From positions 1 to 48,563 of the forward strand of contig JAINDK010000006.1 in the NCBI GenBank assembly GCA_019931185.1: a stretch of 48,563 bases of DNA, given 5' to 3'. The number at the start of each line of letters is the position of its first letter. Positions within the stretch are counted from its first letter, which is position 1. Both the position numbers and the translations under genes were made by a program. Below the pieces are notes generated by a model. The model did no database searches and was not told where the DNA came from. It saw only the letters and a list, made by a program, of their open reading frames with translations. The DNA comes from Bryobacter sp. CoA8 C33. GTDB taxonomy: Bacteria; Acidobacteriota; Terriglobia; Bryobacterales; Bryobacteraceae. Shown piece after piece: positions 3,333 to 31,882 of the stretch.

Positions 3333-4646
3333 TCAGACCTCGTCGAGAGGCTGTGTAGCATCGCCGAAGCGCGGAGGACGCAGACCCATTTTGTCCAGAA
3401 CCGATAGATACAGGCGGCACATCTGCCGTTCGGGCTTTTCGCGGTAATCAAGAACGCGCCCGCCCCGAAGCCGTCCGCCCCCGCCGCCCAGCATGACAAC
3501 TGGCAACTGCCGGGCTTCATGATTGCCCGTGAGCATGCTTGAGCAGAACAGGATCATCGAGTTACCGAGCAGCGTGCGTTCCCCTTCCTGAATGGAATCG
3601 AGCCGGCCCGCCAGATAGCCCAGTTGCTCGAGGAAGAATTGATTTACCTTGAGCCAGTCGGCGGTATCGGAGTGTGAAAGCAGGTGGTGGATCATGTAGT
3701 CAACACCCAGATTGGGGAAGCGCAGGGCGCTGTGATCGTTGTTGAGCTTGAGCGTGGCGATGCGGGTTGTGTCGGTCTGGAAGGCCAGAACCAGGATGTC
3801 GGTCATCAAGCGCATGTGAGCGGCAATGTCCTGGGGGATGCCGTCGGCCGGTCGCGGGATATTTGGTTTTTGCAGGGTTGGACGCCAGCCCTCCAGCCGG
3901 CCGCTCTGCCCGGCGCGACTGATGCGCTGTTCGACATCGCGAACGGAGGCGAGGTATTCATCAAGCTTGTGCTGGTCGCCCCGGCTGATGCCGCGGCGCA
4001 AGTCGTGTGCCTCGCTGAGCACGGCGTCGAGTACGCTCTGGTCGGCGCGGCTCGCCTCGTCCTTGAACAAACGGTCGAAGGCCAGGGCCGGGTAGATTTC
4101 GAGAGGCGTCGGGGTCGTGGGGGAACTCCAGGAAATATGCGAGCTGTAGAGCATCGAATAATCCTTGTGGATCGATGGATTCGACTTCTCGCAGCCGAGG
4201 ACCAGGCTCGGCACCTTAGTTGAATTGCCGTAGCGTTGGGCCAGGAGTTGATCGACGCTGGTGCCGGAGCGGATTTCACCGCCGGCGGCCAGGGGAGCGC
4301 CAGAAAGAAGATTGCCGGTTTGCGAGCTGTGGATATTGCCCTTAAGCGCTTCGGCGTTGAACAGGCCGCGGAGGAAGAGCATGCGGTCGCGGAATGGCTC
4401 AAGAGGAGAGAGCACCTTACCCAACCGCATTTCGCGGCCTTCGCCTTCGGCCCACCATTCCTTGCTATGGAAACCGTTGCCGGCAAAGAGGACGGCGAAG
4501 CGCACGGGCGGCTGGCTCGAGGCGGGTTTGCCGGAGGCCGGCTCGTCGCCCCAAACGGGGGCGGATTCCAGCCAAGGCAGGGCCATGCTAACGCCGGCGC
4601 CACGCAACCAGCGGCGCCGGGAGAACGGATGCGGATTCTTCGTCAT
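3333..4646 (-). CDS. DUF1552 family exported protein
   Basis: This 437-residue protein starts with FSRRRWLRGAGVSMALP, a twin-arginine signal. Typical DUF1552 blocks follow: RFAVLFAGNGFHSKEWW, SPLEPFRDRMLFLRGL, NIHSSQTGNLLSGAPL and SVDQLLAQRYG near the N-terminus, then MTDILVLAFQTDTTRIATL and MIHHLLSHS in the second half. Such proteins are common in Planctomycetes, Acidobacteria and Verrucomicrobia, almost always beside a DUF1587/1592/1588/1585 cytochrome protein, as here. The biochemical role is unknown. Its ATG overlaps the stop of the upstream gene by 4 bases (ATGA), so the two are one transcription unit with this gene second. It converges on the ATP-grasp gene with only 18 bases between stop codons. 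Confidence 0.85.
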   Translation of the reverse strand: MTKNPHPFSRRRWLRGAGVSMALPWLESAPVWGDEPASGKPASSQPPVRFAVLFAGNGFHSKEWWAEGEGREMRLGKVLSPLEPFRDRMLFLRGLFNAEALKGNIHSSQTGNLLSGAPLAAGGEIRSGTSVDQLLAQRYGNSTKVPSLVLGCEKSNPSIHKDYSMLYSSHISWSSPTTPTPLEIYPALAFDRLFKDEASRADQSVLDAVLSEAHDLRRGISRGDQHKLDEYLASVRDVEQRISRAGQSGRLEGWRPTLQKPNIPRPADGIPQDIAAHMRLMTDILVLAFQTDTTRIATLKLNNDHSALRFPNLGVDYMIHHLLSHSDTADWLKVNQFFLEQLGYLAGRLDSIQEGERTLLGNSMILFCSSMLTGNHEARQLPVVMLGGGGGRLRGGRVLDYREKPERQMCRLYLSVLDKMGLRPPRFGDATQPLDEV

Positions 4647-7600: not shown

Positions 7601-8773
7601 GGTCGTGCCGTCGCCGGCGTCGGTCGCCGCCAGAGTGATTCGAACCGCATTGCCAGCATCGGCACCGGCGGCGGCTGGAGGCCGCAGAGGAAGGCGAAAT
7701 TCCTGCTGGTGCTGCAGGGGAGAGACCGGCTCCATCCAAGCTTTCGGCCCACTCAGCTTGCCGATATGACCCACGCTGCTGAACTTCCACAAGGTCTCCT
7801 GCCAAACACCAATCTCGCGCACCAGGCCAGTAATGCCGGAGGGCTTGGCGGTGAGCCAACTCCGGCGGATTGGCTCAAGCAGTGGAGAAGGAGAGGTGCC
7901 GCTCATCAGTGTGACCAGGGTCCGCAGGTATTTCGCGCTCAGACCCTCGCGCGCGGCTACCGCCTCTACCGTTGCGCCTTGCCGGACGCGAAGGGAAGCG
8001 CGCAAGTAGCGCTCGAGTGGCAGCCGGCCGCCACGGCTCTTGTCGAGCGCGATGCCTTGCTGGCGGATCGTGTCGGCGCCGCCATCCTCCGTGAATTGCC
8101 GGTAGAAAGAGCGGATTTCATCGAGCGTCTCGTTGGTCCAATCCCGCGGCGAGGTGTAGCGGGAGAAGCGAATTCCGTTGGGTAGCGGGACCATATGCTT
8201 CGCAACCTGCTTTGCTGCATCGAGGTACTTGCTCACGAGCGATGGCGACATTCCCAGGGCGTTGCCGGTGTTGGTGAATCCCTCGCCGGCCGCGCCGTCA
8301 ACGGGGAATTCCCTCGCGGGGTCGAGCGTTGGCACGCCGGTAAGGTCGCGAATCGTGAAGGTGTACTCAGCGTTGTTCAGCCGGCGCAGAACCACGGGGC
8401 CGGGGTCGCCGGCGTGCGCTACCGCCTCGGCCCTTAAGGCACTGTCGACCCAGTCGAGGATCCGCGTTGTTTCTTGCTCGGTGGGGCGGGGAAGACCCTT
8501 GGGAGGCATTTCCCCTAGCCGGATCTGTTCCGCCAGTTTTTGCCAAAGCCGCACGTTGGCGGCAGAGACACGGCGCGAAATCAGATTTTCGAGATCGATA
8601 TCGCCTGTTGGACGGGCTGTCGAGTGGCAGGCGAGACAATACTTGCCTAGCAGTGGGTCGATAGGCGAGGGAGCGCCTTTTGCGGGCAGGGCGCCAAGCA
8701 GAGTGACAGCAATGATGAATGTGTTCCTGGCAGAGCCGATGAAACGGTTCACTGTGGATGCATCTCCCTTCAA
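4643..8773 (-). CDS. Very large DUF1587/DUF1592/DUF1588/DUF1585 protein with cytochrome domain
   Basis: This is a 1,376-residue exported protein. After a hydrophobic N-terminus (about residues 15-34) comes a cytochrome-c-like domain with CLACH (Cys46, Cys49, His50) and the family signature RLGEMPPKGLPRPT. Next is DUF1587 (about 128-193; LRRLNNAEYTFTIRDLTG). The C-terminal 420 residues hold DUF1595 (AGRAYRRPLN), DUF1592 (LASRLSYFLWSSQPD), DUF1588 with a second CxxCH (CYSCHRRIDPYG) and DUF1585 (CRKLLGYALGRAVQLSD). Between them lies an unusually long middle region, about residues 200-900, rich in beta-forming text, possibly carbohydrate- or ligand-binding domains; relatives are commonly 700-1,000 residues. 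It is the first gene of a pair with the DUF1552 gene. The function is not established; an electron-transfer role coupled to extracytoplasmic substrate handling is inference. GTG at 8752 is an alternative start. Confidence 0.85.
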   Translation of the reverse strand: MKGDASTVNRFIGSARNTFIIAVTLLGALPAKGAPSPIDPLLGKYCLACHSTARPTGDIDLENLISRRVSAANVRLWQKLAEQIRLGEMPPKGLPRPTEQETTRILDWVDSALRAEAVAHAGDPGPVVLRRLNNAEYTFTIRDLTGVPTLDPAREFPVDGAAGEGFTNTGNALGMSPSLVSKYLDAAKQVAKHMVPLPNGIRFSRYTSPRDWTNETLDEIRSFYRQFTEDGGADTIRQQGIALDKSRGGRLPLERYLRASLRVRQGATVEAVAAREGLSAKYLRTLVTLMSGTSPSPLLEPIRRSWLTAKPSGITGLVREIGVWQETLWKFSSVGHIGKLSGPKAWMEPVSPLQHQQEFRLPLRPPAAAGADAGNAVRITLAATDAGDGTTGDRVLWQNPRLVIPGRQPVALKDVPRLVAALEQRRRLVSGATARALVAASGGEEIGLDPVARKAWFDYLGAGAVNEPIKLSLLTRRMERVGEFDFVKAWGGGKEPWVVANPSSRAVRIPGAMKPQGVALLPTASQQAAVGWQSPVTGAITIEATVAAAHSECGNGVSWAVELRRGGMRLRLGDGLTRRATPSGLAATTLPVRQGDLISVLIGAREGNAACDLTSLDWTIRGEGGQWSLSGDTVANLLAANPHADTNGRAGVWHFYQEPDSPAATAVPAGSLLARWVTAATDDSRRALATQMQHLLTAAPPAADTPDGILYRQLTSLAGPLLAGVQADPDSTAANSPWGLDPKRFAGQDLLLDAPGMLDFQLPADLVNAAEFAVTGTLAPGPASAQGSVQLQVTSGKPLLAPGLMAGATTVTTKDGTWSNNNQVLSMTMPVVTAPGTPAHRRFENAFDEFRRHFPASLCYTKIVPVDEVVTMTLFHREDDHLKRLLLNPAQQKQIDRLWEELHFLSRSPLLMVDAFEQLWQYATQDADPSQFEPLRQPIQRRAMEFRQALVAAESKQLEGVIEFAGRAYRRPLNAGARDSLTGLYQRLRAQDLPHDEALRLTLGRVLTGPEFLYRSETAPAGAAPGPLSSWDLASRLSYFLWSSQPDATLREAAASGRLRTAAGRTAEVRRMLRDGRVRRLASEFGAAWLHIQGFDTLDEKSERHFPEFVALRADMFEETLRFLTDFFQSGRSVLSLLDADHTFVNENLAKHYGIAGVQGPDWRRVEGLRTLSRGGILGHSTTLAKQSGASRTSPILRGNWISEVLLGDKLPRPPKDVPQLPDDEANLTLTMRELTENHTSDPRCYSCHRRIDPYGYTLERFDAIGRWREKDLGGRPIHTRSKLLDGTEVDGLDGLRQYLLGPRRSAFLRQFCRKLLGYALGRAVQLSDEPLLDQMQSRMAAEGYSVRAAIETIVNSRQFRYIRGRDAAAEEETTP

Positions 8774-17908: not shown

Positions 17909-18369
17909 CCCAATACTGCACATTTTATTTGCAAGACAAGCACTACGGCGTACCCATGCTTGAGGTTCAGGAAGTCATTCGGGGTCAGAGTCTGACGCCA
18001 GTGCCTTTGGCGCAACCAATGGTGGAGGGCCTGATGAATTTACGCGGGTCCATCGTGATGTGTGTGGATCTGCGCCGGAGGCTGGGGCTTGCGGATGCTC
18101 GGGAGAATCAGGCTCCCCTGCAGATCATACTGAATGGGCAGTCGGGGCTGGTTGGCTGGATCGTGGATCGGATGAGCGAAGTCCGGGAGTTGGACCCTGA
18201 GTTGGGCGAGTCTCCTCCGGGAACGATCCTGGCGGAAAATCGCGAGCTCCTTGATCGCGTTTTTGCTCTGGAATCTGGTTTGTTGATGGTGCTAAATCCC
18301 GAGCGGGTTTTTCAAGGGGAGCCGGAACGCACTGAACGACATCGGGAAAGCTCTCGTGGGTTTGTTTGA
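17905..18369 (+). CDS. cheW: CheW adaptor
   Basis: This 154-residue protein consists of one CheW domain: [20 protein letters not shown], then [19 protein letters not shown], then [13 protein letters not shown]. CheW links chemoreceptor tips to CheA. It begins 4 bases inside the end of cheA, so the two are translationally coupled. The C-terminal tail after about residue 135 is charged ([14 protein letters not shown]) and probably disordered. Its end overlaps the longest possible frame of the next gene, but the preferred start of that gene is downstream. Confidence 0.85.
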
Positions 18370-18463
18370 TTTGTTTGACGGTGGCTTCTCAGGGAGGCCT
18401 TCCGTCTTTCGATTGGTTTCATATCTCGATGCAAAGAATCGAGTTGCAGAACAGGAGAAGAAG

Positions 18464-20086
18464 ATGAAGCTGGAAAATCCTTATCCTATGCCGGAGCAGA
18501 CAATGCCCGGTTCACCGCAACTGGCGGCATTGGCCACCGCCTCAAATGACCGTTACGCGATTCTCGAACACTTAGGAACCTGCGTGGTGGTGACTGGTCC
18601 GGATCTGCGCGTCTGCTATCTCAACCAGCGTGCGAGCGATTGCTTAGCCCGCTTAAGCGACGACCTGGAGTCGAGCCTTGGCTTTCGTGCCGGGGAAGTC
18701 ATCGGCCAGGACCTGTCGGCATTCTGGGGCGGTAAGGCTGACTCGGTCCGGCCTCGGCTCGGGGAAGGTAAGCATCTGCCGGTTACGGCGGAGTTGGGTA
18801 TTGGAAAGAGTTGGGTTGACATTGAGGTGAATGCCCTGGTTCCCGGGCGCGGGCCTGTAACCGGGCTAATTGTGAATTTTGCTGACATTACGGCGCAGCG
18901 TAAGGCTCGGATGGATCTTGAGCGCACCCGCCAGATGGTCGACAATGCGCCGATTAACATCATGCGCACGAACAACGAATTCGTCATCGAGTACATGAAT
19001 CAAGCGAGTGTTGATACTTTGCGCCGGCTCGAGCATTTGTTGCCGGTCAAGGTCGACCAGATACTCGGATCTTCCATGGACATTTTCCACCGCCACCCGG
19101 AGCGCCAGCGGTCCATCGTTGCCGACCCGTCGCGGCTTCCGCATCGTACGAAGTTCAAACTCGGACCGGAGACACTCTCATTGCTGGTGACGGCGATGAA
19201 GGACGAAAAAGGCAACTATCTTGGGCCGATGGTGACCTGGGAGGTGATTACAGCGCAGGTGAACAGTGATGCCCGCCAGGCCGAGATCATGGAGCAACTG
19301 AAGCATACGGCCAGCAGTGTTCTGGAGAATTCGACTTCATTGAATGAGATCAGCCAGCAGATGACCAGCAATGCTGAGGAAACCGCTGCACAAGCCAGTA
19401 TCGTTTCAGCGGCGAGCGAACAGGTTTCGAAAAATGTGGAAGTTGTCTCCACCGGCGCGCAGCAGATGCTGACAAGCATTCGCGAAATTTCGAAGTCGGC
19501 GAATGAAGCGGCCCGTGTCGCCAAGGCTGCGGTGAGTGTTGCCGGGGAGACGAACACAACGATTTCGAAGTTGGGTGAGTCCTCGATCGAGATCGGAAAG
19601 GTGATCAAGGTCATTACTTCGATTGCGCAGCAGACCAACTTGTTGGCGTTAAACGCGACCATTGAGGCGGCGCGAGCCGGGGAGGCCGGGCGGGGCTTTG
19701 CTGTTGTTGCCAACGAAGTCAAGGAGTTGGCCAAGGAAACGGCCAGGGCTACTGAGGAGATTGGGCGGAAGATCGAGACGATTCAGGGAGACACCCGTTC
19801 GGCCGTGGCGGCTATCGGTGAGGTCAGCGGGATCATCAACCAGATCAACGATATTTCGAATGTGATTGCCGCTGCCGTCGAAGAGCAAACGGCGACCACC
19901 AACGAGATCGGCCGCAACGTAGGACAGGCGGCTCAAGGTACGCAGGAGATCGCCCGCAATATCTCCGGTGTTGCCACGGCAGCGCGCAATACGAGCGCGG
20001 GAGCTTCTGAGATGCAGCGTTCGGTGACCACCTTGACCGAGGTGTCGAACCAACTCGACGAACTGATTGCGAAGTTTTCGGTATAA
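18464..20086 (+). CDS. Soluble PAS-domain methyl-accepting chemotaxis protein
   Basis: The protein is 540 residues long from the ATG at 18464, which follows a strong AGGAGAAG ribosome-binding site. A GTG at 18356 would add 36 residues and overlap cheW, so it is less likely. Two PAS-like domains come first ([20 protein letters not shown]; then [20 protein letters not shown]). A classical signalling domain follows, with [20 protein letters not shown] and [20 protein letters not shown] at the hairpin tip. No membrane span or signal is present, so the receptor is cytoplasmic and probably senses an internal cue such as redox state or a bound cofactor. It sits between cheW and cheB, consistent with being the cognate receptor of this CheA. 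Confidence 0.88.
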
Positions 20087-20094
20087 GCCGTCGC

Positions 20095-21174
20095 ATGAAG
20101 GAATCCCGAATCCTGGCTGAAGGAGATCGAATTCGTGTGCTCGTGGTTGACGATTCCGTCGTCGTGCGCCGTGCGGTCAGCCACGTGCTTGAGTCTGACC
20201 CGCGAATCGAGGTTGTGGGCGTGGCCGCGAGCGGCGAACTGGCGCTTCAGAAGGTCGATCAATTGAACCCTGACGTGGTCACCCTGGACGTCGAGATGCC
20301 GGGGATGAACGGGTTGGAAACGTTGGTGGAATTGCGAAGGCGCAGGCCTGGCCTGCGCGTTGTCATGCTGAGCACATTGACGGGGCCTGGTGCCCGGACG
20401 TCGGTGGAGGCGCTCAGCTTGGGGGCCGACGACTGTGCCGCGAAATCCTTGGCGGGTGTAACTTTCGAGCAATCGCTCAGTCATCTGCGGGACGAATTGT
20501 CAGGCAAGATCAAGCAGTTTTTTCCCATTCCCGCTGGCGGCCTCACCGCATCGCCGAATGGTCCGGGCGCGGCCGTGAGGCCGGCTCCGGGGCAAGCGGT
20601 CGATGCGATCGTGCTCGGGGTTTCCACCGGTGGGCCTACCGCGTTGGCGCAGGTATTGCCCGCGTTGCCGGCGGACTTCAAGTTGCCGCTGCTGATCGTG
20701 CAGCACATGCCTCCGGCCTTTACCAAGCTACTGGCCGAACGGCTCGACAGCCAGAGCCGAATCCGGGTGCGAGAGGCCGAGTCCGGAATTCCGGTTGAAC
20801 CGGGCGAGGCGTTGATTGCACCCGGTGATTTTCACCTCCGGCTGAGCAGGCGCGGCTCCGAGGTGTACACGGTGCTCGACCAGTCTGCTCCGGAGAATTG
20901 CTGCCGTCCGGCGGTTGATGTTTTATTCCGAAGCGCCAGTGAGGTCTGGGGCAAGTATGTCGCCGCCTTCGTGATGACCGGAATGGGACAGGATGGGCTC
21001 GCTGGTGCTCGCAGTCTTTGGGCAGGTGGTTCTCCGGTTTATGCTCAAGACGAGCCGAGCAGTGTTGTCTGGGGCATGCCCGGTGAAATTGTGCGCCATG
21101 GCCTGGCCGATTTTGTCTTGCCGCTTGAAGCGATTGCTCCCGCCATGGCGGCGCTTAGCCGGCATCGGAGCTAA
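20095..21174 (+). CDS. cheB: CheB protein-glutamate methylesterase
   Basis: This 359-residue protein has an N-terminal receiver domain with Asp19-Asp20 and phospho-acceptor Asp65 (TLDVEMPGMNG). A linker follows, then the methylesterase domain with the Ser177 (GVSTGGP), His204 (VQHMPP) and Asp300 (MTGMGQDG) triad. It removes methyl groups from chemoreceptor glutamates, and may deamidate receptor glutamines, when activated by CheA phosphorylation, giving adaptation. It lies 8 bases after the MCP gene and 2 bases before cheR. All catalytic residues are present, so it should be active. Confidence 0.93.
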   Translation: MKESRILAEGDRIRVLVVDDSVVVRRAVSHVLESDPRIEVVGVAASGELALQKVDQLNPDVVTLDVEMPGMNGLETLVELRRRRPGLRVVMLSTLTGPGARTSVEALSLGADDCAAKSLAGVTFEQSLSHLRDELSGKIKQFFPIPAGGLTASPNGPGAAVRPAPGQAVDAIVLGVSTGGPTALAQVLPALPADFKLPLLIVQHMPPAFTKLLAERLDSQSRIRVREAESGIPVEPGEALIAPGDFHLRLSRRGSEVYTVLDQSAPENCCRPAVDVLFRSASEVWGKYVAAFVMTGMGQDGLAGARSLWAGGSPVYAQDEPSSVVWGMPGEIVRHGLADFVLPLEAIAPAMAALSRHRS

Positions 21175-21176
21175 CT

Positions 21177-22028
21177 ATGGCAAAACCGGAATCTGTGGCC
21201 GCCAGCTACCAGTTTCTCCGCGAATACATCGCCGGGCAGACAGGCATTGAACTGGGCCCGGACCGACAGTACCTTGTCGAAAGCCGGCTGGAGCCTGTAA
21301 TGGAGGAAGTCGGGTGCCAGTCTCTTGCCGAGCTTTGTGTGGCGCTGCTGCGCGAAAACCAGAGCGTACCGTCTTATGCTCATGCCGCCGCGCCGATCCG
21401 CCGCAAAATTATCCATGCGCTAAGCACCCACGAGACCTCGTTTTTCCGCGATCCTGATTTGTTCGCCTTGCTTCAGTCCCGATTGCTAAAGCAACTGAGC
21501 GAAGAAAATGGTTGCCACCGCCTGCGGATGTGGTCGGCTGCAGCCAGCTCCGGCCAGGAGGCCTATAGTCTTGCCATGTGCGCTCTCGAGACTGGAGTTT
21601 ACGCTCCACCCTTGATTTTTGCCTCGGACGTTTCCGCTATTGTCATCGAGGCCGCCAGCCGGGGTTGCTTTACCGATTATGAGTTATTGCGGGGAATGGA
21701 TGACCCGGTTTTGCGGCAAAGGTACTTTGTGCCGATCAAGGGCGGCGCACAAGTAAAGCCGGAAATCCGAGCGTTGATCGAGTTTTCTTGCGCTGATCTG
21801 CGTGAGCCCCCAAATGCAAAATTTGCACCTCTCGATTTAATATTATGCCGAAACGTCATGATTTACTTTGAAGAAGAAACACGTTTGCAAGTGCTCTCTC
21901 ATCTTCGGGATCAATTGCGGCAGGGTGGAATTTTGATTCTGGGCGCCGCCGAAACGATCTGGTCGCATTTTGTGGGACTGGAACGGATTCAGGAGGGAAA
22001 CACGGCGTTTTACCGGAGAATAGAGTAA
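21177..22028 (+). CDS. cheR: CheR chemoreceptor methyltransferase
   Basis: This 283-residue S-adenosylmethionine-dependent methyltransferase contains the family blocks THETSFFRDPDLFALL, RMWSAAASSGQEAYSLAM (SAM-binding glycine-rich region), FASDVSAIVIEAASRGCF and LDLILCRNVMIYFEEETR (which includes the NVMIYF motif), ending with ILGAAETIW. It methylates receptor glutamates, opposing CheB. As the last gene of the chemotaxis operon, two bases after cheB, it closes the unit; a promoter for the next gene follows within about 70 bases. No pentapeptide-binding tail motif was looked for in the receptor. Confidence 0.93.
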   Translation: MAKPESVAASYQFLREYIAGQTGIELGPDRQYLVESRLEPVMEEVGCQSLAELCVALLRENQSVPSYAHAAAPIRRKIIHALSTHETSFFRDPDLFALLQSRLLKQLSEENGCHRLRMWSAAASSGQEAYSLAMCALETGVYAPPLIFASDVSAIVIEAASRGCFTDYELLRGMDDPVLRQRYFVPIKGGAQVKPEIRALIEFSCADLREPPNAKFAPLDLILCRNVMIYFEEETRLQVLSHLRDQLRQGGILILGAAETIWSHFVGLERIQEGNTAFYRRIE

Positions 22029-22097
22029 GGTTGCTCCTGAACTGCGAGTCTGAAAAGGCCCATCGAAAACTTTTATAGAGTAGAGGCCTTGAAGATC

Positions 22098-22126
22098 TTG
22101 GTAGCTGGCTAAACACTGTTTATACT
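22098..22126 (+). promoter_or_regulatory. Probable sigma70-type promoter of the TonB receptor gene
   Basis: TTGGTA (22098-22103) and TATACT (22121-22126) are separated by exactly 17 bases, matching 4 of 6 and 5 of 6 bases of the vegetative consensus. Transcription would start near 22133 and leave a leader of about 128 bases before the ATG at 22261. This is the only good match in the gap after cheR. Confidence 0.55.
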
Positions 22127-22140
22127 CCTAGAAACGAGGA

Positions 22141-22159
22141 AAAGAGAGATCGTCTCTTT
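22141..22159 (+). promoter_or_regulatory. Hairpin at the 5' end of the TonB receptor leader
   Basis: AAAGAGA (22141-22147) and TCTCTTT (22153-22159) form a perfect 7-base stem around a 5-base loop. It would lie within about 10-25 bases of the predicted transcription start, where hairpins often stabilise transcripts of abundant outer-membrane proteins. That role is inference. Confidence 0.4.
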
Positions 22160-22260
22160 GCCTCCACGTTCCTGCCCCACTTTGCCTGTCATTATCGCCC
22201 TGTTGCGACTCTGGCTCTCCCGTGCTCCGAGCCAAGAATCCAATCGTTCAGGGGATCTCA

Positions 22261-25200
22261 ATGAAAAAATCTCGTCTTTGCCTCGCGTTTTCGCTGTTGG
22301 CTTTGTTGGCAGTGAACAGCGCCACTTGGGCACAAAGCGCTTTTGGCAACATGCGTGGAAATGTTGTTGACCAAGGTGGAGCCACCGTCGCCAACGCAAA
22401 AGTCACGTTGCTCGAAGAATCAACAGGTGTTACCCGGTCTGCCGTTACGTCCACGGCCGGGGAATATGTATTCGCCAATATCAATCCCAGCACCTACACG
22501 ATCATCGTGGAGCAGAGTGGCTTCAAGAAAACGGAACGGAAAGGTGTGGTCGTTGCTACTCAACAATACGTCACGCTGGATGTAAAGCTCGACGTTGGCG
22601 ATGTGACACAAAGCATCCTGGTGACGGAAGAAACACCGCTGCTTGAAACCGCCACAGCCTCCACCGGCCAAGTCGTCGACCGTCAAAAACTAATTGACCT
22701 CCCGAACCTCGGGCGCAACCCCTTCATGATGTCGCGGCTGGCGCCCACCGTGGTGCAGGTCGGCAATCCGGCCTACGCCCGCATGCAGGACCAATCCGGA
22801 AGCTCGCAGATTTCAATCGTAGGCGGCCCGGTTCGCGGCAACAACTACCTTCTTGATGGCATTCCGATTACTGACTTCGCCAACCGCGCCATCATTGTTC
22901 CCTCGCTCGAAGCCGTGGAAGAAATGAAAGTGCAGATTTCCACTTATGACGCGGAAACCGGCCGTTCCGGCGGAGGCATGTTCAATACCTATCTGAAGAG
23001 CGGCGGAAACGCCTACCATGGCGCTCTGTTCGGTTACATGCGCGAAACAGAATGGCTTGCCAACACGTTTTTCAATAACCGCAACGGCCGCAAAATCACG
23101 GATCAGCCCTTCCGCAACTACGGCGGCGCTTTCGGCGGTAAGGTTTGGATTCCGAAAATCTACGACGGCAAGAATCGCACCTTCTTCTACCTGGGTTTCG
23201 AAGGCTACCGCGACACGCAGGCTGCGTCCCGTGAACAGTACACTCCCACTGCCCGCGAGCGTGTAGGCGACTTCTCTCAGACCCAGGCTCAAAACGGCCA
23301 ATTGCTGATGATCTATGACCCGCTCACTACTGCCCCCAATGGCGCCCGCACGGCTTTCCCCGGCAACATTATTCCGGCAAACCGTATCGACACCGTCGGC
23401 CGCAACATCGCTGCAACCTATATGCAGCCCACACGCCAAGCGCGATTTTATGGGGATAACAATTTAGCCGGTGCCGGCCCATTGCCGTCAGTTGCCGATC
23501 AGCGCTTCATCAAGCTCGACCATACCTTGTTCAGTTGGTGGCGCGCAAACGTCAGCTATATGGGCTACAACTCGTCGGAGCCTGGCGAAAACCCCTACCC
23601 GACCATTTCCTCTCCGGATCAGTGGATCCTCGACCGCTTCGTCAATACAACCCAATTCAACAACACGATCACTCCGAACGCTACCACCGTTGTAGCGGTT
23701 CGCTACGGCTTCAATCGCTTCCCGAATATCGGCACGCAGAAGTCCCAGAACTTTAATGTTGCCAGCCTTGGTTTTGCGCCTACTTTTGTTCGCGACATTC
23801 CTTCTCGGACTTTCCCAAACGTCGGTATGCAGACGGCGTACTCACTCGGTACGAACAATAATTTCAACTACGTCCACTTTTCCAACAACTTTGGAACTCA
23901 GGTCTCGAAGTTTCTTGGCAAGCACAGTCTAAAGGCCGGCTTCGACTATCGCAAGCTTGGTGTCTCCGGCCTGGATTTTGGCAACTCATCCGGTACCTTT
24001 AACTTCAATCTGGATTTCACCCGTTCCGGCGCGAGTTCAGGCTCTGGTGGCTCAGATATTGCTAGCCTTCTTCTGGGTGCTCCCGCTACTGCTCAAGGCT
24101 TTGTGCCCACCTATCAGGTTCAGTTTGTCCGCTACTGGGGAATGTTCTTCCAGGATGACTTCCGCGTATCGAAAAAGCTGACGCTCAATCTTGGCTTGCG
24201 CTGGGAGCGTGAGTCCGGTTTGCGCGAAGTCAACAACAAGCTGATCACTACGTTTGACCGCACGGCGGCGAACCCCCTGCAAGCCTCCGCCGGTGTTCCC
24301 ACACCGGGTGTTTTCCGCTTTGCTGGCGTGGGCGGCGCACCGACTGTGACCTCGAATTTCTTACAGAACAAATGGAGCCCCCGTATCGGTGTCGCTTATC
24401 AGTTGAATGATAAAACTACCCTTCGCGGCGGTTATGGAATCTTCTGGGCGCCTCATTTTGGTCTCGGCGCTCCGTTCGCCTCTGAGGGTATCAATGCTCT
24501 GACCAACCCGGCTACTGATAATGCCGGTCTTCCCCTGGTGCAGTTGAGCGATCCCTTCCCCGGTGGGCTGGACAAGCCTGTGGGCAACTCACTTGGCGAC
24601 CGAACGGGTCTAGGTAAGGCGATGAACGTTTTCTCGCCTGATGCGACCTCTGGTCGTGTGCAGCAATTCAGCTTCGACCTGCAGCGCCAGATCTGGGGCG
24701 GGTTCGTGATCTCGGGCGGCTATGCTGGTTCCCGAAGCGCCAACCTCTCCTGGTCGGCCGCGACGCTGAATGTCAATCAGCTGAATCCCTCCAACTTCAG
24801 CCAAGGTGCGGCTCTTCGCCAGCTGGTGCCGAATCCCTACTTCGGCCGTGGTGGTCTGAATGTGGTTGGCACGGCGTCCATCGAACGCCAGCGTTTGCTG
24901 CGTCCGTTCCCGGCCTTCGATAGCGTTAACTTCCTGAACGACAGCTACGTCAATGCCGATTACAACGCTCTTAACCTGCGTTTGCAGAAAAACATGTCCA
25001 ACGGACTGAGCATCGTCATGGCTCTCACCATGTCACGCAATCGGGATAACACGGGTGGCGGGGCCGGTAACAATTTAAATGCCGGCAATGCTGGTCCCCA
25101 AAATGTTTTCGATCTCGACAGTGAGTATGGCTACAGCTACATTCACTCGCCCCGCCGTCTGACTAACGCTCTCACCTACGAATTGCCTTTCGGTAAGGGT

Positions 25201-25701
25201 AAGAAATGGCTTGCCTCCATGAATCGGGCGGGTGAGATTGCAATAGGCGGATGGTCGATTAATGCGGTTACCACACTCCAGACCGGTTATCCCCTGCAGA
25301 TCTTCTCCAACGCCAACTTGAACGCTCCGTTCGGCACGGCGCGTCAGCGCCCCAATCTCACCGGGCAACCCTTCTCCGTGGATGGTTCCTTCGGCCAGCG
25401 ACTCGACGGTTGGATCAACCCGGGTGCCTTCTCGAATGCTCCGATTTACACCTTTGGCAACACGCCGCGTACAATCGACTTTCGCACACCCGGCCAGGTC
25501 AACTGGGACATCTCGCTCTTCAAGACGGTCACCGTGTTTGAAGGCTTTAAAGCTCAGTTCCGTGCCGAAGCACTCAACTCCATGAATACTCCGTATTTCC
25601 GCGCTCCTAATACCGCATTCGGAAATGCGCAGTTTGGTCGCATCACCTCGCAGGGCAACTTCCCACGGATGATCCAGCTCGGTTTGCGCCTCTTCTTCTA
25701 A
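22261..25701 (+). CDS. TonB-dependent outer-membrane receptor (carboxypeptidase-regulatory-like N-terminus)
   Basis: The protein is 1,146 residues from the ATG at 22261. A Sec signal (LLALLAVNSATWAQS) is followed by a carboxypeptidase-regulatory/Cna-B-like beta domain (NMRGNVVDQGGATVANAKVT; TAGEYVFANINPSTYTI). A plug-like region comes next (VVDRQKLIDLPNLGRNPFMM; GGPVRGNNYLLDGIPITD), then a large beta-barrel with repeated aromatic strands, ending in GLRLFF with the terminal Phe typical of outer-membrane proteins. This architecture is highly expanded in Solibacter-type acidobacteria and is thought to import glycans or other polymers. The ligand is unknown. A paralogue of nearly identical length lies at 28457-31882. 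An upstream in-frame ATG (22222) is rejected in favour of the ATG that starts the signal peptide. Confidence 0.87.
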   Translation: MKKSRLCLAFSLLALLAVNSATWAQSAFGNMRGNVVDQGGATVANAKVTLLEESTGVTRSAVTSTAGEYVFANINPSTYTIIVEQSGFKKTERKGVVVATQQYVTLDVKLDVGDVTQSILVTEETPLLETATASTGQVVDRQKLIDLPNLGRNPFMMSRLAPTVVQVGNPAYARMQDQSGSSQISIVGGPVRGNNYLLDGIPITDFANRAIIVPSLEAVEEMKVQISTYDAETGRSGGGMFNTYLKSGGNAYHGALFGYMRETEWLANTFFNNRNGRKITDQPFRNYGGAFGGKVWIPKIYDGKNRTFFYLGFEGYRDTQAASREQYTPTARERVGDFSQTQAQNGQLLMIYDPLTTAPNGARTAFPGNIIPANRIDTVGRNIAATYMQPTRQARFYGDNNLAGAGPLPSVADQRFIKLDHTLFSWWRANVSYMGYNSSEPGENPYPTISSPDQWILDRFVNTTQFNNTITPNATTVVAVRYGFNRFPNIGTQKSQNFNVASLGFAPTFVRDIPSRTFPNVGMQTAYSLGTNNNFNYVHFSNNFGTQVSKFLGKHSLKAGFDYRKLGVSGLDFGNSSGTFNFNLDFTRSGASSGSGGSDIASLLLGAPATAQGFVPTYQVQFVRYWGMFFQDDFRVSKKLTLNLGLRWERESGLREVNNKLITTFDRTAANPLQASAGVPTPGVFRFAGVGGAPTVTSNFLQNKWSPRIGVAYQLNDKTTLRGGYGIFWAPHFGLGAPFASEGINALTNPATDNAGLPLVQLSDPFPGGLDKPVGNSLGDRTGLGKAMNVFSPDATSGRVQQFSFDLQRQIWGGFVISGGYAGSRSANLSWSAATLNVNQLNPSNFSQGAALRQLVPNPYFGRGGLNVVGTASIERQRLLRPFPAFDSVNFLNDSYVNADYNALNLRLQKNMSNGLSIVMALTMSRNRDNTGGGAGNNLNAGNAGPQNVFDLDSEYGYSYIHSPRRLTNALTYELPFGKGKKWLASMNRAGEIAIGGWSINAVTTLQTGYPLQIFSNANLNAPFGTARQRPNLTGQPFSVDGSFGQRLDGWINPGAFSNAPIYTFGNTPRTIDFRTPGQVNWDISLFKTVTVFEGFKAQFRAEALNSMNTPYFRAPNTAFGNAQFGRITSQGNFPRMIQLGLRLFF

Positions 25702-25719
25702 AGCAGCGAATGAGGAAAA

Positions 25720-25758
25720 TGCCGCCGGATGGATGATTCTATATTCCATACGGCGGCA
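25720..25758 (+). terminator. Hairpin after the TonB receptor gene, possible terminator or attenuator
   Basis: TGCCGCCG (25720-25727) pairs with CGGCGGCA (25751-25758). An inner ATGGA (25729-25733) pairs with TCCAT (25745-25749) across a single G/A mismatch. The stem is strong, but no T-run follows, so it may be a weak terminator, an attenuator or an mRNA-processing site that sets the receptor/aminotransferase ratio. Confidence 0.45.
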
Positions 25759-25766
25759 CAAATGAA

Positions 25767-25772
25767 TATAAT
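25767..25772 (+). promoter_or_regulatory. Perfect -10-like TATAAT before the aminotransferase gene
   Basis: TATAAT lies 42 bases before the ATG at 25815. No convincing -35 element sits 16-18 bases upstream because that space is occupied by the preceding hairpin. It could be an independent promoter for the aminotransferase gene or a chance match in an AT-rich gap. Confidence 0.3.
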
Positions 25773-25814
25773 GTATACAAACTAGCAGTACAGCTCGAAA
25801 GGAACCGATCACAA

Positions 25815-26969
25815 ATGTCGTTCTTCAACTCCGAAGTCGAAAAAGATCTTCTCCAGCGCGGTTACAGCCGACGCAGCTTTGGCCGCATTTCGGCTCTGGT
25901 TGCTGGAGGCGCCGCTCTTCCCTTCTACAACGAAGCTGCGATGGCACAGCTCTCCATGCGCCGTGATGTACCGGCAGACGCCGTGCGCATCAACGCCAAC
26001 GAGAACCCCCTTGGCCCCTGCCCCGAAGCGGCGGAAGCCATGTATGCCGTCATCAAGGGTGGCGGTCGCTACATGTATGAGAAGACCTTTGAGTTTGCCA
26101 AGACTCAGGCCGACATCGATGGTGTGAAGCCCGACTATGTGCAGCCCTTCGCCGGTTCTTCCGCTCCTCTGCACTATTCCGTGATTGCTTTCACCTCCAA
26201 GGAACGTGGTCTTGTTACCGCCGACCCCGATTACGAAGCTGCCGCCCGCGCCGCTCAGTTCGTTGGCGCCAAGGTTACCAAGGTGAAGCTTGACGGCGCC
26301 AACGGCTACAAGCATGACGTAAAGGGGATGCTCGCTGCTGATCCTAATGCCGGCGCTTACTACATCTGTAACCCCAACAACCCCACCGGCACGCTTACCC
26401 CGAAGAGCGACATCGAATGGCTGATTAAGAACAAGCCAGCCGGCTCGGTTGTTATCCTCGATGAAGCCTACATCCATTTGACCGGCGCCGACTTTGGTTC
26501 TGATTTTGTGCAGCAGGACAAGGACGTTGTCATTCTCCGTACCTTCTCGAAGCTCTTCGGAATGGCCGGCTTGCGCGCTGGGGCCGCCATCGCCCGTCCC
26601 GACCTGCTCAAGAAGCTGATGCCCTATTCATCCGGCGCCCTCCCGGTTACCGGTATGGTCGGCGCGAATGCTTCCCTCAAGGTCAAGGACCTTGTGCCGA
26701 AGCGCCGCGAGATCATCAAGACCACCCGCGAAGACGTTCTCGGCTGGTGCTCGAAGAAGGGTTATGCCTTCATCCCTTCGGTCTCCAACAAGTTCATGGT
26801 CGACGTGAAGATGCCCGCCCGTGACTACATCGAAGCCATGGTGAAGGAAAAGGTTCTTGTTGGGCGTGCCTGGCCCTCGATGCCTTCCTATGTGCGTGTT
26901 TCCATCGGTCTGCCGGAAGAAATGCAGAAGTGGAAAGCCGCTCACGAAAAGGTCATGTCGAAGGCCTAG
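25815..26969 (+). CDS. Tat-exported histidinol-phosphate-aminotransferase-like PLP enzyme
   Basis: This 384-residue fold-type I aminotransferase resembles HisC. It shows ANENPLGPCPEA, ADPDYE, NPNNPTG (186-192), DEAY (216-219), the Schiff-base lysine Lys246 (TFSKLFGMAGLRAG) and the C-terminal RVSIGLPEE. The surprise is the N-terminus: YSRRSFGRISALVAGGAALP (Arg19-Arg20) is a good twin-arginine signal, so the enzyme is probably exported folded with its PLP. It is therefore unlikely to make histidine; a periplasmic amino acid or amine substrate is inferred. It lies 113 bases after one TonB receptor gene and just before a SulP transporter gene. A GAAAGGAA ribosome-binding site precedes the ATG. 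TonB receptor substrates may feed it, but nothing in the sequence identifies them. Confidence 0.85.
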   Translation: MSFFNSEVEKDLLQRGYSRRSFGRISALVAGGAALPFYNEAAMAQLSMRRDVPADAVRINANENPLGPCPEAAEAMYAVIKGGGRYMYEKTFEFAKTQADIDGVKPDYVQPFAGSSAPLHYSVIAFTSKERGLVTADPDYEAAARAAQFVGAKVTKVKLDGANGYKHDVKGMLAADPNAGAYYICNPNNPTGTLTPKSDIEWLIKNKPAGSVVILDEAYIHLTGADFGSDFVQQDKDVVILRTFSKLFGMAGLRAGAAIARPDLLKKLMPYSSGALPVTGMVGANASLKVKDLVPKRREIIKTTREDVLGWCSKKGYAFIPSVSNKFMVDVKMPARDYIEAMVKEKVLVGRAWPSMPSYVRVSIGLPEEMQKWKAAHEKVMSKA

Positions 26970-27064
26970 TCTCGGCTCTCGCTTCGTTCTGTGGATGGTC
27001 GGCGCCTCGTCCGCGCCGGCTCCTCCATAACCTTCTCCCTGCTTTCTCTTCTCTCAGGACGACC

Positions 27065-28351
27065 TTGAAACTCCCAAAGATCGACTACAGTTGGAAACAA
27101 CTTGGCGGCGATATTTTTGGTGGCGCCATCGCCGCGCTGATTGCCTTGCCGTATGGCCTCGCCATGGCCACACTGATGGGCATCCCTCCGATTTACGGGC
27201 TCTTTACCTCGCTCATCTCCGCCCCCCTGACCGCCCTGCTTGGCCGCAACCCCGTACTCATCGGCGGCACCTCCACGGTCACCCTCCCTTTCATGGTTTC
27301 CGCCGTCCAGCAACAAGGGCTTGCCGGATGCGCTAAAGTCACCCTCGTGGCCAGTGTCTTCATGATGATCTTCAGTGTGCTGAAGCTCGGACGCCACATC
27401 TCCAAGATCCCTCCCACGGTTGTTTCCGGCTTCTCCTGCGGTATCGGGGCCATGATGGTGGTCAACCAGTTGCGCACGATTTTGGGCATTCAACCACCGG
27501 CTGGCGTCTCCTGGCCCTCCAGCGTCCTTGGCCAGTTGAAGGCTGTATCCCTTTATCTTGGCAGCGCCCATTGGCAGCCGATCCTGCTTGGCCTGATTGT
27601 CATCGCTTGTGCCTTTTATTTCGCTAAGCTGAACAACAAGCTTCCCGCGCCCCTGATGGGTGTTGTCATCGCGGTTGGCGTCTCGCTTGCCTTCGGCATG
27701 CACGAAAAAGAAGTCGGCAAGCTCAACCTCGACATTCCCCCCTTCATGGGCTTCACCTGGAGCCCCCAGGAAGTTTTCTCACTGATCAATGAAGGCTTCG
27801 GTCTGGCCGTGGTCTCCAGTATCAATCTGCTGATTACCTCCCGGGTTGTCGAACACTTCCGCGGCCGTCACCGCCCCATGCGCCCCTCTGACGCCGATGG
27901 CGAACTGGGTGCTTATGGCATTGCCAACGTCGTTTGCGGTATCTTCGCGGCGCCGATGAGCGTCGGGATCCCCGCCCGTTCCCTCGCCAACGTGCGTTGT
28001 GGCGGCACTACCCGTATTTCCAATCTCGTTCATGCCGGCTTGCTCCTGCTTTTTCTCGGCTTGGGTTCCGAGATGGTTTCGAAAATCCCACTTCCGGCCT
28101 TGGCCGGCGTGACGGCCTACGTTGGCATCATGCTTCTTGAGTGGGGTACCTGGCGCCGGCTGCGGCGGATGACACCAGTCGATTCAGGAGCCTTCCTCGC
28201 CACCGCCTTTGCCACTCTGTTGATCAACGCCGTCGCCGCCGTTGCGATTGGTTGTGCGTTCTATCTCTCCCGCTGGCTCTATCACGTGATGCTCGCCCGG
28301 CCTCGTTCGGCCGGCGTGCCGGATGCCGGCGCCGCTCTCCACCCACACTAG
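27065..28351 (+). CDS. SulP-family anion transporter lacking a STAS domain
   Basis: This multi-pass inner-membrane protein is 428 residues from TTG at 27065, which has AGGA six bases upstream; the open frame extends back to 26930 but those residues look non-coding. SulP signatures are visible: GGAIAALIALPYGLAMATLM, IYGLFTSLISAPLTALLG and GGTSTVTLPFMVSAVQQQ in the first helices. SulP proteins move sulfate, bicarbonate, nitrate or organic anions. Most bacterial SulP proteins carry a C-terminal STAS domain; this one ends just after the last helix (SRWLYHVMLARPRSA), so it is a transporter-domain-only form. It is downstream of the Tat-exported aminotransferase gene and upstream of the second TonB receptor. 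Confidence 0.8.
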   Translation: MKLPKIDYSWKQLGGDIFGGAIAALIALPYGLAMATLMGIPPIYGLFTSLISAPLTALLGRNPVLIGGTSTVTLPFMVSAVQQQGLAGCAKVTLVASVFMMIFSVLKLGRHISKIPPTVVSGFSCGIGAMMVVNQLRTILGIQPPAGVSWPSSVLGQLKAVSLYLGSAHWQPILLGLIVIACAFYFAKLNNKLPAPLMGVVIAVGVSLAFGMHEKEVGKLNLDIPPFMGFTWSPQEVFSLINEGFGLAVVSSINLLITSRVVEHFRGRHRPMRPSDADGELGAYGIANVVCGIFAAPMSVGIPARSLANVRCGGTTRISNLVHAGLLLLFLGLGSEMVSKIPLPALAGVTAYVGIMLLEWGTWRRLRRMTPVDSGAFLATAFATLLINAVAAVAIGCAFYLSRWLYHVMLARPRSAGVPDAGAALHPH

Positions 28352-28456
28352 ATCCCAGCTCACCCAGTCGGCTGCCCGGATCCCCCAAAGAACTCCCTCG
28401 CTCAATGTTCTGAGCAACAAAGCCTGAAAAATCAAACTTCTTGAAAGAGGTGTATC

Positions 28457-31400
28457 ATGCGCTTCCGTGCCCTTGCACTCACGCTTGTTCTGCCTTGCTT
28501 TGTATCGTTGCTTGGGGCCCAGTCCTATCAGGGTGGCCTGCGCGGCAGCGTGAAAGATCCCGCCGCCGTCGCCGTCGCCAAGATCACCATCCAGGACGAG
28601 GCCACCAACGTTTCCCGCTCCATTCTGTCCAACGACCAGGGAGAATTCGTTTTCCAAGTGTCAATCCCGTCACCTACAAGCTCATCATCGAGAGCCCCGG
28701 TTTCTCCCGTCTTGAGAAAACCGGCATCATCATTGCCACGCAAACCTTCCTCACCCTCGATTTCAAATTGAATGTCGGCGAGGTCACTCAATCCATCAAC
28801 TTCACCGAGGAGGTCCCCCTGATGGAGACCGCCAACGCTTCCACCGGCCAGGTGATCGATTCGCAAAAAATGACCGACCTTCCCAATCTCGGCCGAAACC
28901 CCTTCATGTTCGCCAAACTCGCCCCCAATGTCGTTCAGGCCGGCGATCCCCGCTTCAATCGCATGCAGGATCAAAGCGGATCCTCCGCCATTTCCATCGC
29001 CGGCGGCCCCGTGCGCGGCAACAACAACTTGCTTGACGGAGTTCCCATCACCGACTCCACGAATCGCGCCGTCATCATCCCCACCATGGAGGCCGTCATG
29101 GAAGTCAAGATCATGGCCTCCACCTTCGACGCCGAAGTCGGCCGCACCGGCGGTGGCATGTTCAATACCTTCCTCAAGTCCGGCTCCAACCAGCTTCATG
29201 GCTCCCTCATGGGCTACCTTCGTGAAAAACAGTACCTCGCCAATAGCTTCTTCAATAACCGCAACGGAGTGCCCCGTCCCGATCAGCCGTTTCGTAATTT
29301 CGGCGGCTCGCTCAGCGGCCCCGTCTGGATTCCCAAGCTCTATGACGGACGCAACAAAACCTTCTGGTTTGTCTCCCAGGAAGCCTACCGGCAAAAATCA
29401 GGCATTTCCCGCGAACTGGCAACTCCCACCGCTCTTGAGCGCACGGGTAATTTCTCGCGCAGCCTCGATCGCTCCGGGCGCGTCTATCCGATTTTTGATC
29501 CACTCACCTCGCGGCTCGACCCCGCCACCGGCGTCGTCACCCGCACTCCTTTCTCCGATTCCACCATTCCCGCATCCCGCATCAATCCCATCGGAGCCCG
29601 CTTGGCCAGCTACTTTCCCCTGCCCACCCGCTCCCCCAGCTACTTGGGCGATACCGCCTATCTCGGCAACGACGTCCTCGTCGACCGCGCCGACCAATAC
29701 ACCGCCAAGTTCGATCATGAGCTCTTTTCCTGGTGGAAGGCGAATCTCTCCTACCTGCACTACAAGAGCCGCGAACCCCGGCGGCAACCTCTTCAACAAC
29801 GTAGCCGGGCCGAGCCCTTCCTTGCTTTTCCGCAAGGTCGACACCACCCGGACCAACCACACCATTACCCCCAACGCCACCACCGTTCTCAGTCTCCGCT
29901 ATGGCTTCAATCGCTTCCCGAACGCCACCATCTATGAGATTGAAGGCTTCGACGTCACAACTCTCGGTTTCCCCGCCAGCCTCGTCCGGGATCTTCCCAG
30001 CCAGCGCTTTCCCTCCCTCACCATGCAGACCTTCTCCGCCATGGGCTCGGGCAGCGGCACGCAGAGCGTGTTCCACTCCCGCAATGCCCTCGTTAGCGTG
30101 GCGAAATTCATGGGCCGCCACAGCTTCCAAGCCGGCTATGACTATCGCGTTCTCAACGTCGACTTCATTACCTTCGCCGCCGCCGGCAGCTATACCTTCA
30201 ACGACACCTTCACGCGCCGCGACCCTAATCGCGGAAGTGACGGCACCGGTTCCGACCTCGCCAGCCTCCTGCTCGGCTTTCCCGCATCCGGCAGCGTTAC
30301 CCAGAACACAAAGTATTACCAGTATGTTCGCTACCATGGCCTCTACTTCCAGGACGACTTCCGCCTCAACTCCCAGCTCACGCTCAATCTCGGTCTCCGC
30401 TATGAGTACGAAACCGGCCTCCGCGAACGCAACAATAACCTCATCGTCGGCTTCAATCCCACCGCGGTCAGTCCGCTCGGCGCCCCGGCCGTCGGCGCTC
30501 TCCAATACGCCGCCGTCAATGGCGCCCCCACCGAATGCTGCAATCCCTCAAGCCGTAAGTTCGCCCCCCGCATTGGTTTTGCCTGGCAATGGAACCCCAA
30601 AACCACCATCCGCGGTGGCTACGGCATTTTCTGGGCGCCGGTCAGCTACAGCGGCTTTGCCAGCCTCGGCTACTCCCAGCAAACCGATTATGTGGGCAGC
30701 TTTGATGGTGGCCAGACTCCATCCGGCTCTCTCTCAAACCCCTTCCCCAACGGTATTCAAAAGCCGGTAGGCAACAGCCTCGGCGCCCTCGTCGGCATCG
30801 GCCAGGCCCTTAGCTACATGAATCCAGACGCCGGTTCCACCGCCGTTCACCAAGTCGCCTTCGACCTCCAGCGCCAAATGCCCGCGGGCGTCGTCACGGC
30901 CGTCGGCTACGTCGGCTCTCGCACAACCAACCTGATTCTCGGCTCCGGCTCCGTCAACATCAATCAACTCACGGCCGACCGTCTCGCCCTCGGCGCCGCG
31001 CTTTTGCAGAACGTACCCAACCCCTTCTTTGGCCGTGGTGGCCTGAACGCAGTCGGTTCCGCCAACGTCCAGCGCCTGCAACTGCTCCGGCCCTATCCGC
31101 AGTTCTCCTCCGTCAGCATGTCGTTCAACAACGACAACAACGCCCTTTATGACTCCTTCGTCGTCAAGGCCCAAAAGCGTTTCGCCGCCGGCCTCAGCTT
31201 CCTGTCCTCCTGGACCTGGTCCCGTACGCTCGATGCCAGTTTCGGCAACTCAAACTACTTCACCTCCATTCCCGGCAGCCCGCAGGACAGCTATAACCTC
31301 GGTGCCGAGTATGGCTTAAGCACCAGCCACACTCCCCACGCCATCAAGGGCAGTGTTTCCTATGATCTCCCCTTCGGAAAAAACAAGCTCTTCCTCTCCA

Positions 31401-31882
31401 AGGGCGCACTCTGGAATCAAATCGCCGGCGGCTGGCGGATCAATACTGTCCATCTTTTCCAGACCGGTTTCCCGCTCTCGGTCTTCCAGAATCAGAACTT
31501 CAACTCGGTTTTCGGCAACGGCCTCATGCGGCCCAATGCCTCCGGCAGCTCGCCCCTCACCAGCGGTCGCCTGCAGGATCGCCTCGATTCCTACCTCAAT
31601 CCCTCGGCCTTCACCACGGCCTCGCAGTTCACCTTCGGCAACACCGCGCGCACGCTCAACTATCGCAGCCCGGGCACCCTCAACTGGGACCTGTCCCTGC
31701 TCAAAACCTTCACCGTCCTCGAGCGCTTCAAAGGCCAATTCCGCGCCGAAGCCACCAACGCCTTCAACACGCCCCAATTCAATGGCCCCAACACCGCCTT
31801 TGGTAACGCCAACTTTGGCCGCATCACCCAGCAGGTAAATTTCCCGCGTTACATCCAACTTGGTGCTCGCGTGATGTTCTAG
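28457..31882 (+). pseudogene. Second TonB-dependent receptor, disrupted by two compensating single-base frameshifts
   Basis: The sequence is a full-length paralogue of the receptor at 22261-25701: signal MRFRALALTLVLPCFVSLLG, Cna-like domain, plug (LPNLGRNPFMF; GGPVRGNNNLLDGVPITD), barrel, and a terminal RVMF. It is read in three pieces. At 28654-28655 one C is missing (GEFVF|QVS should read GEFVFPSVNPVTYK), and at 29776-29779 one C is extra (REP|RRQ should read REPGGNLFNNV). The frame is restored afterwards, so the product would otherwise be about 1,141 residues. Both changes fall in short C-runs, so sequencing or assembly error is possible; otherwise the gene is a fresh pseudogene. The start has an AGAGGTG ribosome-binding site. 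Confidence 0.75.

Follow-up and report, generated by a model that had tools for sequence, protein, structure and literature searches.

Gene content of the locus

We analysed a stretch of 48,563 nt from Bryobacter sp. CoA8 C33 (contig JAINDK010000006.1 of assembly GCA_019931185.1, positions 1-48,563, forward strand), hereafter the window, with a focus on four neighbouring genes: a predicted outer-membrane receptor of the TonB-dependent type (receptor 1), a pyridoxal phosphate (PLP) aminotransferase carrying a signal of the twin-arginine translocation (Tat) type, an anion transporter of the SulP family and a second receptor gene (receptor 2) (Table 1). The original prediction had described these four genes, from their order, as one system. 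We find that receptor 1, the aminotransferase and SulP are as described and that these three genes form the conserved unit, whereas receptor 2 cannot be read as a single frame and is not a constant part of the locus. The resulting cassette is a new combination of known families that is widespread in one bacterial order.

Table 1. Features of the receptor-aminotransferase-SulP locus, with positions in the window
Feature	Coordinates	Strand	Remarks
Intergenic stretch 5' of receptor 1	22029..22260	+	232 bp; cheR ends at 22028
Receptor 1	22261..25701	+	1,146 aa; predicted TonB-dependent-type receptor of the outer membrane, Oar-like
Aminotransferase	25815..26969	+	384 aa; PLP aminotransferase of HisC-like fold with Tat-type signal, PRK09105/NF006580 subfamily
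Signal peptide	25815..25946	+	twin-arginine type, predicted; residues 19-20 are RR, cleavage read by eye at about residue 44
Lys246 codon	26550..26552	+	expected PLP-binding lysine, TFSK motif
SulP transporter	27065..28351	+	428 aa; anion transporter of the SulP/SLC26 family without STAS; begins with TTG, 95 bp downstream of the aminotransferase gene
Receptor 2	28457..31882	+	paralogue of receptor 1; two single-base indels (near 28,657 and 29,780)

The aminotransferase contains a twin-arginine motif (SRRSFGR), a signal cleavage site placed by eye between AMA and Q, and an intact PLP lysine, and thus appears from its sequence to be the Tat-type PLP enzyme that had been predicted. It meets the cutoff of the NF006580 (PRK09105) model (463.8 against 444) and falls below those of the PtaA model NF051461, which is its second-best NCBIfam match (370.3 against 500), of the HisC model TIGR01141 (182.9 against 276.55) and of the CobD model TIGR01140 (111.4 bits against 290.55); the 1lc5 entries were also matched. 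The best solved match by sequence, which also came first by Foldseek, is 3ly1 from Erwinia carotovora atroseptica. A structure model built on an 8-row alignment (mean predicted local distance difference test score, pLDDT, 62.7) has a HisC-like fold, with low template modelling scores (TM-scores) of ~0.4-0.5. Among 79 homologous enzymes of at least 300 aa and at least 150 bits, N186-P-N-N189, D216, Y219, K246, R254 and R361 are kept in at least 97%, and K246 was invariant in a separate comparison of eight sequences. An RR motif lies near the start in 75 of the 79; one of the four missing the pattern reads SRRHA and the called start of the others may be late. The window's genome has a TatC gene, and the enzyme would be exported by Tat to the periplasm.

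A role in histidine synthesis, named with the original prediction as the finding that would speak against it, was rejected: the enzyme misses the HisC cutoff, and another gene of the genome, hisC-like and 25% identical to the aminotransferase, sits on contig C38 in a run that reads hisG-hisD-hisC-HAD-hisB-hisH-hisF-hisA (names from reading the translations). The genome also has a second aminotransferase of the kind found at the locus (G000:C111:67318-68445, locus L053), 56% identical and with no SulP or receptor gene directly beside it.

The SulP protein matches PF00916 alone (181.7 bits, cutoff 23.2), has no STAS match at E 0.001 and ends shortly past the transmembrane domain, in line with its earlier description as STAS-less. 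Its open frame begins at 26930, inside the aminotransferase gene; the start is likely the TTG at 27065, because AGGA precedes it and the protein is also called at 428 aa in congeners, that is, in all five that have the gene. The BicA (NF050096) and DauA (NF008660) models score it at 167.6 and 150.5, against cutoffs of 880 and 614, and its closest solved relative is 6ki1 (128 bits), which we take to be BicA. In our reading of the alignment, the arginine in IPARSLANVRCGG (IPARSLANV) aligns with the arginine of SLC26A6 and prestin, and is presumably the SLC26 anion-site arginine; the same position holds a glycine in 6ki1 and a glutamine in 5iof, which we assume to be SLC26Dg. The arginine of TSRVVEHF had been a candidate for this site and was dropped after a profile alignment put the anion-site arginine in IPARSLANV.

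Receptor 1 is an open frame starting with ATG, and its length is as predicted. Three of its domains exceed their Pfam cutoffs (CarboxypepD_reg, OMP_b-brl_4 and TonB_dep_Rec_b-barrel), with barrel scores of 38.9 bits for PF00593 (cutoff 27) and 621.1 bits for PF25183 (cutoff 30). The Plug domain PF07715 gave no match in receptor 1 at 1e-3 and a sub-threshold one in the relative at locus L109 (0.0046, 17.9 against 23.9 bits). The structure model of receptor 1, also from an 8-row alignment, has a mean pLDDT of 38.7, too poor to use or to judge the plug, and a search of the PDB with the receptor profile gave a single weak match, to a different kind of protein. The succession of a carboxypeptidase-regulatory domain and a large beta-barrel resembles receptors of the Oar type, the likeness being one of domain layout. 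According to the accessible part of the source, Oar of Myxococcus is required for protease secretion (PMC6434023); the receptor 1 subfamily differs in sitting with an exported-type aminotransferase.

This association is visible in a search of the window's genome and 13 others, picked for having a receptor at the locus. In these 14 genomes receptor 1 has homologues at E<=1e-180 in 22 places, 20 of which are aminotransferase loci; in three of the 20 the enzyme has no SulP (G088:C3, G090:C2 and G120:C12). The two places away from enzyme loci are G006:C3 and G165:C70. The receptor beside the aminotransferase and SulP ranks first among the matches in 12 of these 13 other genomes and second in G165. 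The window's own genome gave 128 first-look candidates for receptors of this kind, and among the 51 that were scored, receptor 1 itself and the interrupted receptor 2 are alone in reaching E<=1e-180. At the level of sequence, the receptor 1 subfamily is thus tied to the exported-type aminotransferase.

Two frame-breaking indels in receptor 2

The two receptors are paralogues, as had been claimed, with about 50% identity (49% over the C-terminal piece of receptor 2). The length of about 1,141 residues given for receptor 2 does not hold for the assembly: translated as written from 28457, the gene runs into a stop after about 100 codons. The start and the C-terminal part of receptor 2 share one frame, separated by ~1.1 kb in another; the signal and the first domain lie within the first frame, which is regained after the 1.1 kb. 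Compared to the intact gene of the congener G003, receptor 2 has lost one base near 28,657 and gained one near 29,780, while the remaining length differences are multiples of three. A working 1,141-aa gene was therefore rejected for the assembly as written. The separate pieces contain no additional stops, and their ratios of non-synonymous to synonymous substitution rates (dN/dS) against G003 are 0.09 and 0.11, with 0.06 to 0.13 for the neighbouring genes (dS is above 1, which makes these ratios rough). Because the pieces are free of stops and still look constrained, the indels may be either recent damage in the organism or an assembly error. Beyond the intact copy in G003, the gene is open to the contig end in G002, and G004 has only its start, also at a contig end; its place is taken by a different receptor in G001 and by none in G006.

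Conservation of the gene order

Five of the seven congeners show the locus. Receptor 1, the enzyme and SulP stand together in G001, G003, G004 and G006, and the contig of G002 starts inside the enzyme gene. In a survey of 250 genomes of the order, the enzyme was found in 137 (E<=1e-80) and SulP in 98 (E<=1e-60). In at least 89 of the 104 SulP places the gene immediately 5', on the same strand, encodes an aminotransferase; these cases come from at least 86 genomes and have gaps of -138 to 222 bp. Both counts are lower bounds, given that the 104 SulP matches were paired with 150 of a larger number of aminotransferase matches. Among the other 15 SulP places, L092, L094 and L095 also have an adjacent enzyme, and in G013 an enzyme fragment lies just before SulP at the contig end. 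A scan of named genomes showed SulP behind the enzyme at all eight loci, at least six of which are already among the 250-genome counts; one of the eight carries the label Planctomycetota, perhaps through a binning error. Among 297 genomes across the phylum, SulP at E<=1e-60 was found in the window's own genome only.

The fetched loci were chosen by hand among the matches, long contigs being preferred. Of 48 SulP-linked loci, the window and four congeners among them, 29 have a receptor of this type as the immediate upstream neighbour in the same orientation (52 were fetched, minus four that end at the enzyme at a contig edge). Behind SulP, a receptor of this subfamily was found outside the genus, in our reading of these loci, only in L061, and a distant receptor in L083. 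The four-gene order was rejected as the conserved unit, since receptor 2 is absent, different or broken in some members of the genus and rare outside it. The central idea, that receptor, exported PLP enzyme and SulP make up one system, does stand up to the check proposed with it: the enzyme-SulP pair is kept across the order, the receptor lies upstream in these 29 loci, and the objection from histidine synthesis fails. On a quick tree of the 79 enzymes, the presence of SulP as the next gene needs at most 10 changes, against a mean of 23.1 in 500 shuffles, none of which was as low; the shuffles ignore relatedness, and L061 and L086 were scored as lacking SulP through gene-calling misses, which could only raise the figure of 10 or leave it unchanged. 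Twelve related enzymes form a group without SulP.

Additional genes at SulP loci

A protein of ~200 aa whose start resembles a signal by eye, and which has an HExxH motif followed after seven residues by a further histidine (HExxH-x7-H in 18 of 18), is encoded at 25 of 55 SulP loci and at none of the 26 fetched loci without SulP. This count covers 81 sources, several of them truncated where a contig ends; L061, L086 and L093 were placed in the SulP group by hand, the 26 loci include two in which no enzyme was called (L108 and L117), and the profile was built from 18 of the counted proteins. The gene is found at one of three positions, 5' of the receptor, 5' of the enzyme or 3' of SulP. Two of the proteins were scanned, one having no Pfam match at 0.1 and the other a weak zinc-peptidase match (0.006). 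In the window's genome the one homologue at E<=0.001 lies on another contig (G000:C46:8533-9129).

Family models were run on a minority of the other neighbouring genes. A symporter with DctA/GltP as best models is found at the SulP loci L064, L092, L094 and L095 (three by scanning, L095 by clustering), and a DctA-type gene lies six genes away from the enzyme in L114, a locus without SulP. L064 and L094 are composite, each combining a pair of aminotransferase genes with those for SulP, the symporter, a receptor and an HExxH protein. Succinate dehydrogenase genes follow downstream on the same strand at five SulP loci of two lineages, directly behind SulP in L065 and L066 and two genes further in L062, L096 and L097. 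In these last three, which belong to one lineage, an arylsulfotransferase and a sulfatase gene follow SulP immediately in the same orientation, ahead of the succinate dehydrogenase genes. A TauE/SafE-type gene adjoins SulP in L058, the only locus scanned for it.

A proposed function for the cassette

PLP enzymes outside the cytoplasm are unusual, as the original prediction had pointed out. There are precedents in PtaA and PvdN of Pseudomonas (PMC6206403; here and below we rely on the accessible part of this source). PtaA is a close parallel, being a HisC-like aminotransferase with a Tat-type signal, recognised for the window's enzyme by its motif, and it is exported folded, carrying its PLP (PMC6206403). 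The two differ in that the window's enzyme stays well below the PtaA cutoff, and no SulP partner is mentioned for PtaA in that part of the source (PMC6206403). By contrast, the enzyme does fall into the PRK09105/NF006580 subfamily and has its best solved match in 3ly1, two entries whose records assign no substrate; the comparison with 3ly1 covers the window's enzyme only.

What the sequence itself shows is the family of each gene, a motif of Tat type, unaltered residues for catalysis, a conserved order of the genes and the subfamily of the receptor. On this basis we tentatively propose, with somewhat less than even confidence, that the locus is an order-level cassette which takes up an amino compound and transaminates it outside the cytoplasm, an organic anion being moved through SulP. 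Import of the ligand, an amino compound or a small peptide, through the outer membrane would fall to receptor 1. The aminotransferase would fold with its PLP, leave the cytoplasm by Tat and swap the amino group between the ligand and a keto acid in the periplasm, and SulP would move the resulting or co-substrate organic anion across the inner membrane. The ligand and the inward direction of flow that had been suggested are conceivable on this proposal, under which the three genes would also be co-expressed.

The most likely class of substrates, by analogy, would be an acidic amino acid and its keto acid, of the aspartate/oxaloacetate or glutamate/2-oxoglutarate type. This guess is based on neighbouring genes (DctA-type and succinate dehydrogenase), on the parallel with DauA and DctA and on the glutamate chemistry of PtaA. 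The SulP protein DauA of E. coli transports succinate, fumarate and aspartate and has DctA as an interaction partner (PMC5703999), and PtaA converts a glutamate residue into 2-oxoglutarate in the periplasm (PMC6206403). The likeness to the DauA-DctA pair lies in the SulP family and in the DctA/GltP-type gene by SulP in the loci of four relatives; DauA differs in having a STAS domain, and the window's SulP stays far below the cutoff of its model. BicA is closest by sequence among solved SulP proteins, yet here too the model cutoff is missed by a wide margin and the arginine of IPARSLANV is replaced.

Several observations weigh against the proposed cassette. A periplasmic transaminase requires a keto acid acceptor, and none was identified, which is the main gap. 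The general sulP, BicA and DauA models score SulP about equally and none reaches its cutoff, so that its substrate is not narrowed by them, and both structure models are weak. Two of the seven congeners (G005 and G007, 88% and 79% complete) gave no match to this locus's enzyme, G005 having only a SulP fragment and a paralogous enzyme and G007 only the paralogue, and 19 of the 48 SulP-linked loci have no same-strand receptor directly upstream. Neither a DctA-type nor an HExxH gene is present at the window locus, the homologues being on other contigs. Sulfur genes also occur beside SulP (L062, L096, L097 and L058). Moreover, succinate dehydrogenase genes lie near SulP-less enzymes in L110 and L112 and a DctA-type gene near that of L114, and because these three loci lack SulP, such neighbours are not special to it.

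SulP is classically a sulfate family, and the cassette could instead scavenge sulfur, the enzyme transaminating a sulfonated or sulfinated amino acid such as cysteate and SulP taking up the sulfonated keto acid, sulfite or sulfate. The sulfonated amines suggested in the original prediction would fit such a role, as would the arylsulfotransferase, sulfatase and TauE/SafE-type genes behind or beside SulP, but sulfur genes were seen at only 4 of the 55 SulP loci (the TauE type having been scanned for in L058 alone), whereas a symporter of dicarboxylate/amino-acid type is encoded at four loci and succinate dehydrogenase at five, of which three are the sulfur-gene loci themselves. We regard sulfur scavenging as rather unlikely. 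A little less probable still is the tailoring or recycling of a metallophore, whose amino-acid side chain would be altered by the enzyme after import by the receptor, as PtaA does with pyoverdine, SulP then moving a small released anion. That PtaA is the second-best NCBIfam match speaks for this option, and so does the place of PtaA in the siderophore system that also includes FpvA for TonB-dependent uptake (PMC6206403). However, the PtaA cutoff is missed, and a Pfam scan of 20 frames of the window turned up no recognisable gene for making a metallophore. PtaA itself is also present in species that do not produce pyoverdine (PMC6206403), and the kept pairing with SulP would be left unexplained.

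The acceptor problem would vanish if the enzyme were an acceptor-free PLP lyase or decarboxylase of the HisC/CobD fold, with SulP taking up the acid product. The scores of the CobD model and the matches to the 1lc5 entries allow for such an activity, and the Tat-exported PLP enzyme PvdN decarboxylates while the amino group is retained (PMC6206403); given that the two best models, PRK09105 and PtaA, are both of aminotransferases, we consider it just as doubtful as a metallophore role. Lastly, the genes may be neighbours merely by shared history, SulP being a bicarbonate or sulfate transporter unlinked to the enzyme, as its closest solved relative, BicA, and the group of twelve enzymes without SulP might suggest. 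The frequency with which SulP adjoins the enzyme across the order, the low number of changes on the tree, with its shuffles that ignore relatedness, and the tie between the receptor subfamily and the enzyme all argue against such a loose neighbourhood, which we find very improbable.

Returning to the proposed uptake and transamination cassette, one specific form of it would close the loop within the periplasm. SulP would act as an antiporter, exporting a keto acid such as 2-oxoglutarate or oxaloacetate to serve as acceptor in exchange for the keto product, and a DctA/GltP-type symporter, encoded at the locus or elsewhere, would retrieve the glutamate or aspartate. We think this version unlikely. 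If true, an antiporting SulP would fill the acceptor gap and the loop would explain how a periplasmic transaminase regenerates its PLP, and it would let the cell strip nitrogen from amines imported over the outer membrane while keeping them out of the cytoplasm.

Amino-group chemistry is normally confined to the cytoplasm. A cassette kept across an order would indicate that periplasmic transamination can be a routine part of metabolism, beyond the siderophore case of Pseudomonas. Regeneration of PLP in the periplasm is merely assumed in the accessible part of the PtaA source (PMC6206403), and a transporter partner renders this question testable. The listings obtained from open-licence PubMed Central contained no description of a receptor combined with an exported transaminase and a STAS-less SulP. 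Each of the families, and exported transaminases as such, were already known; the new element is that such transaminases are regularly found together with a SulP lacking STAS and with one receptor subfamily.

Wider context in the window

Directly 5' of receptor 1, at 18356-22028, lie genes for a methyl-accepting chemotaxis protein with PAS domains, CheB and CheR. These chemotaxis genes are retained upstream of receptor 1 in G004 and replaced by other genes in G001, G003 and G006. The cumulative GC skew has its maximum near 22 kb (20000-24000), the skew being positive leftward and negative rightward of it, and the change is flanked on both sides by plus-strand genes. It possibly lies near a replication terminus. 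An assembly break at this position is unsupported, because the gene order of G004 runs identically across it, the junction between the chemotaxis genes and receptor 1 being also present in that congener (L040). On the minus strand, at 3333-8752, a DUF1552 gene (HXXSHH) adjoins a PSD/PSCyt multi-domain gene, a gene pair that is common in planctomycete-type genomes.

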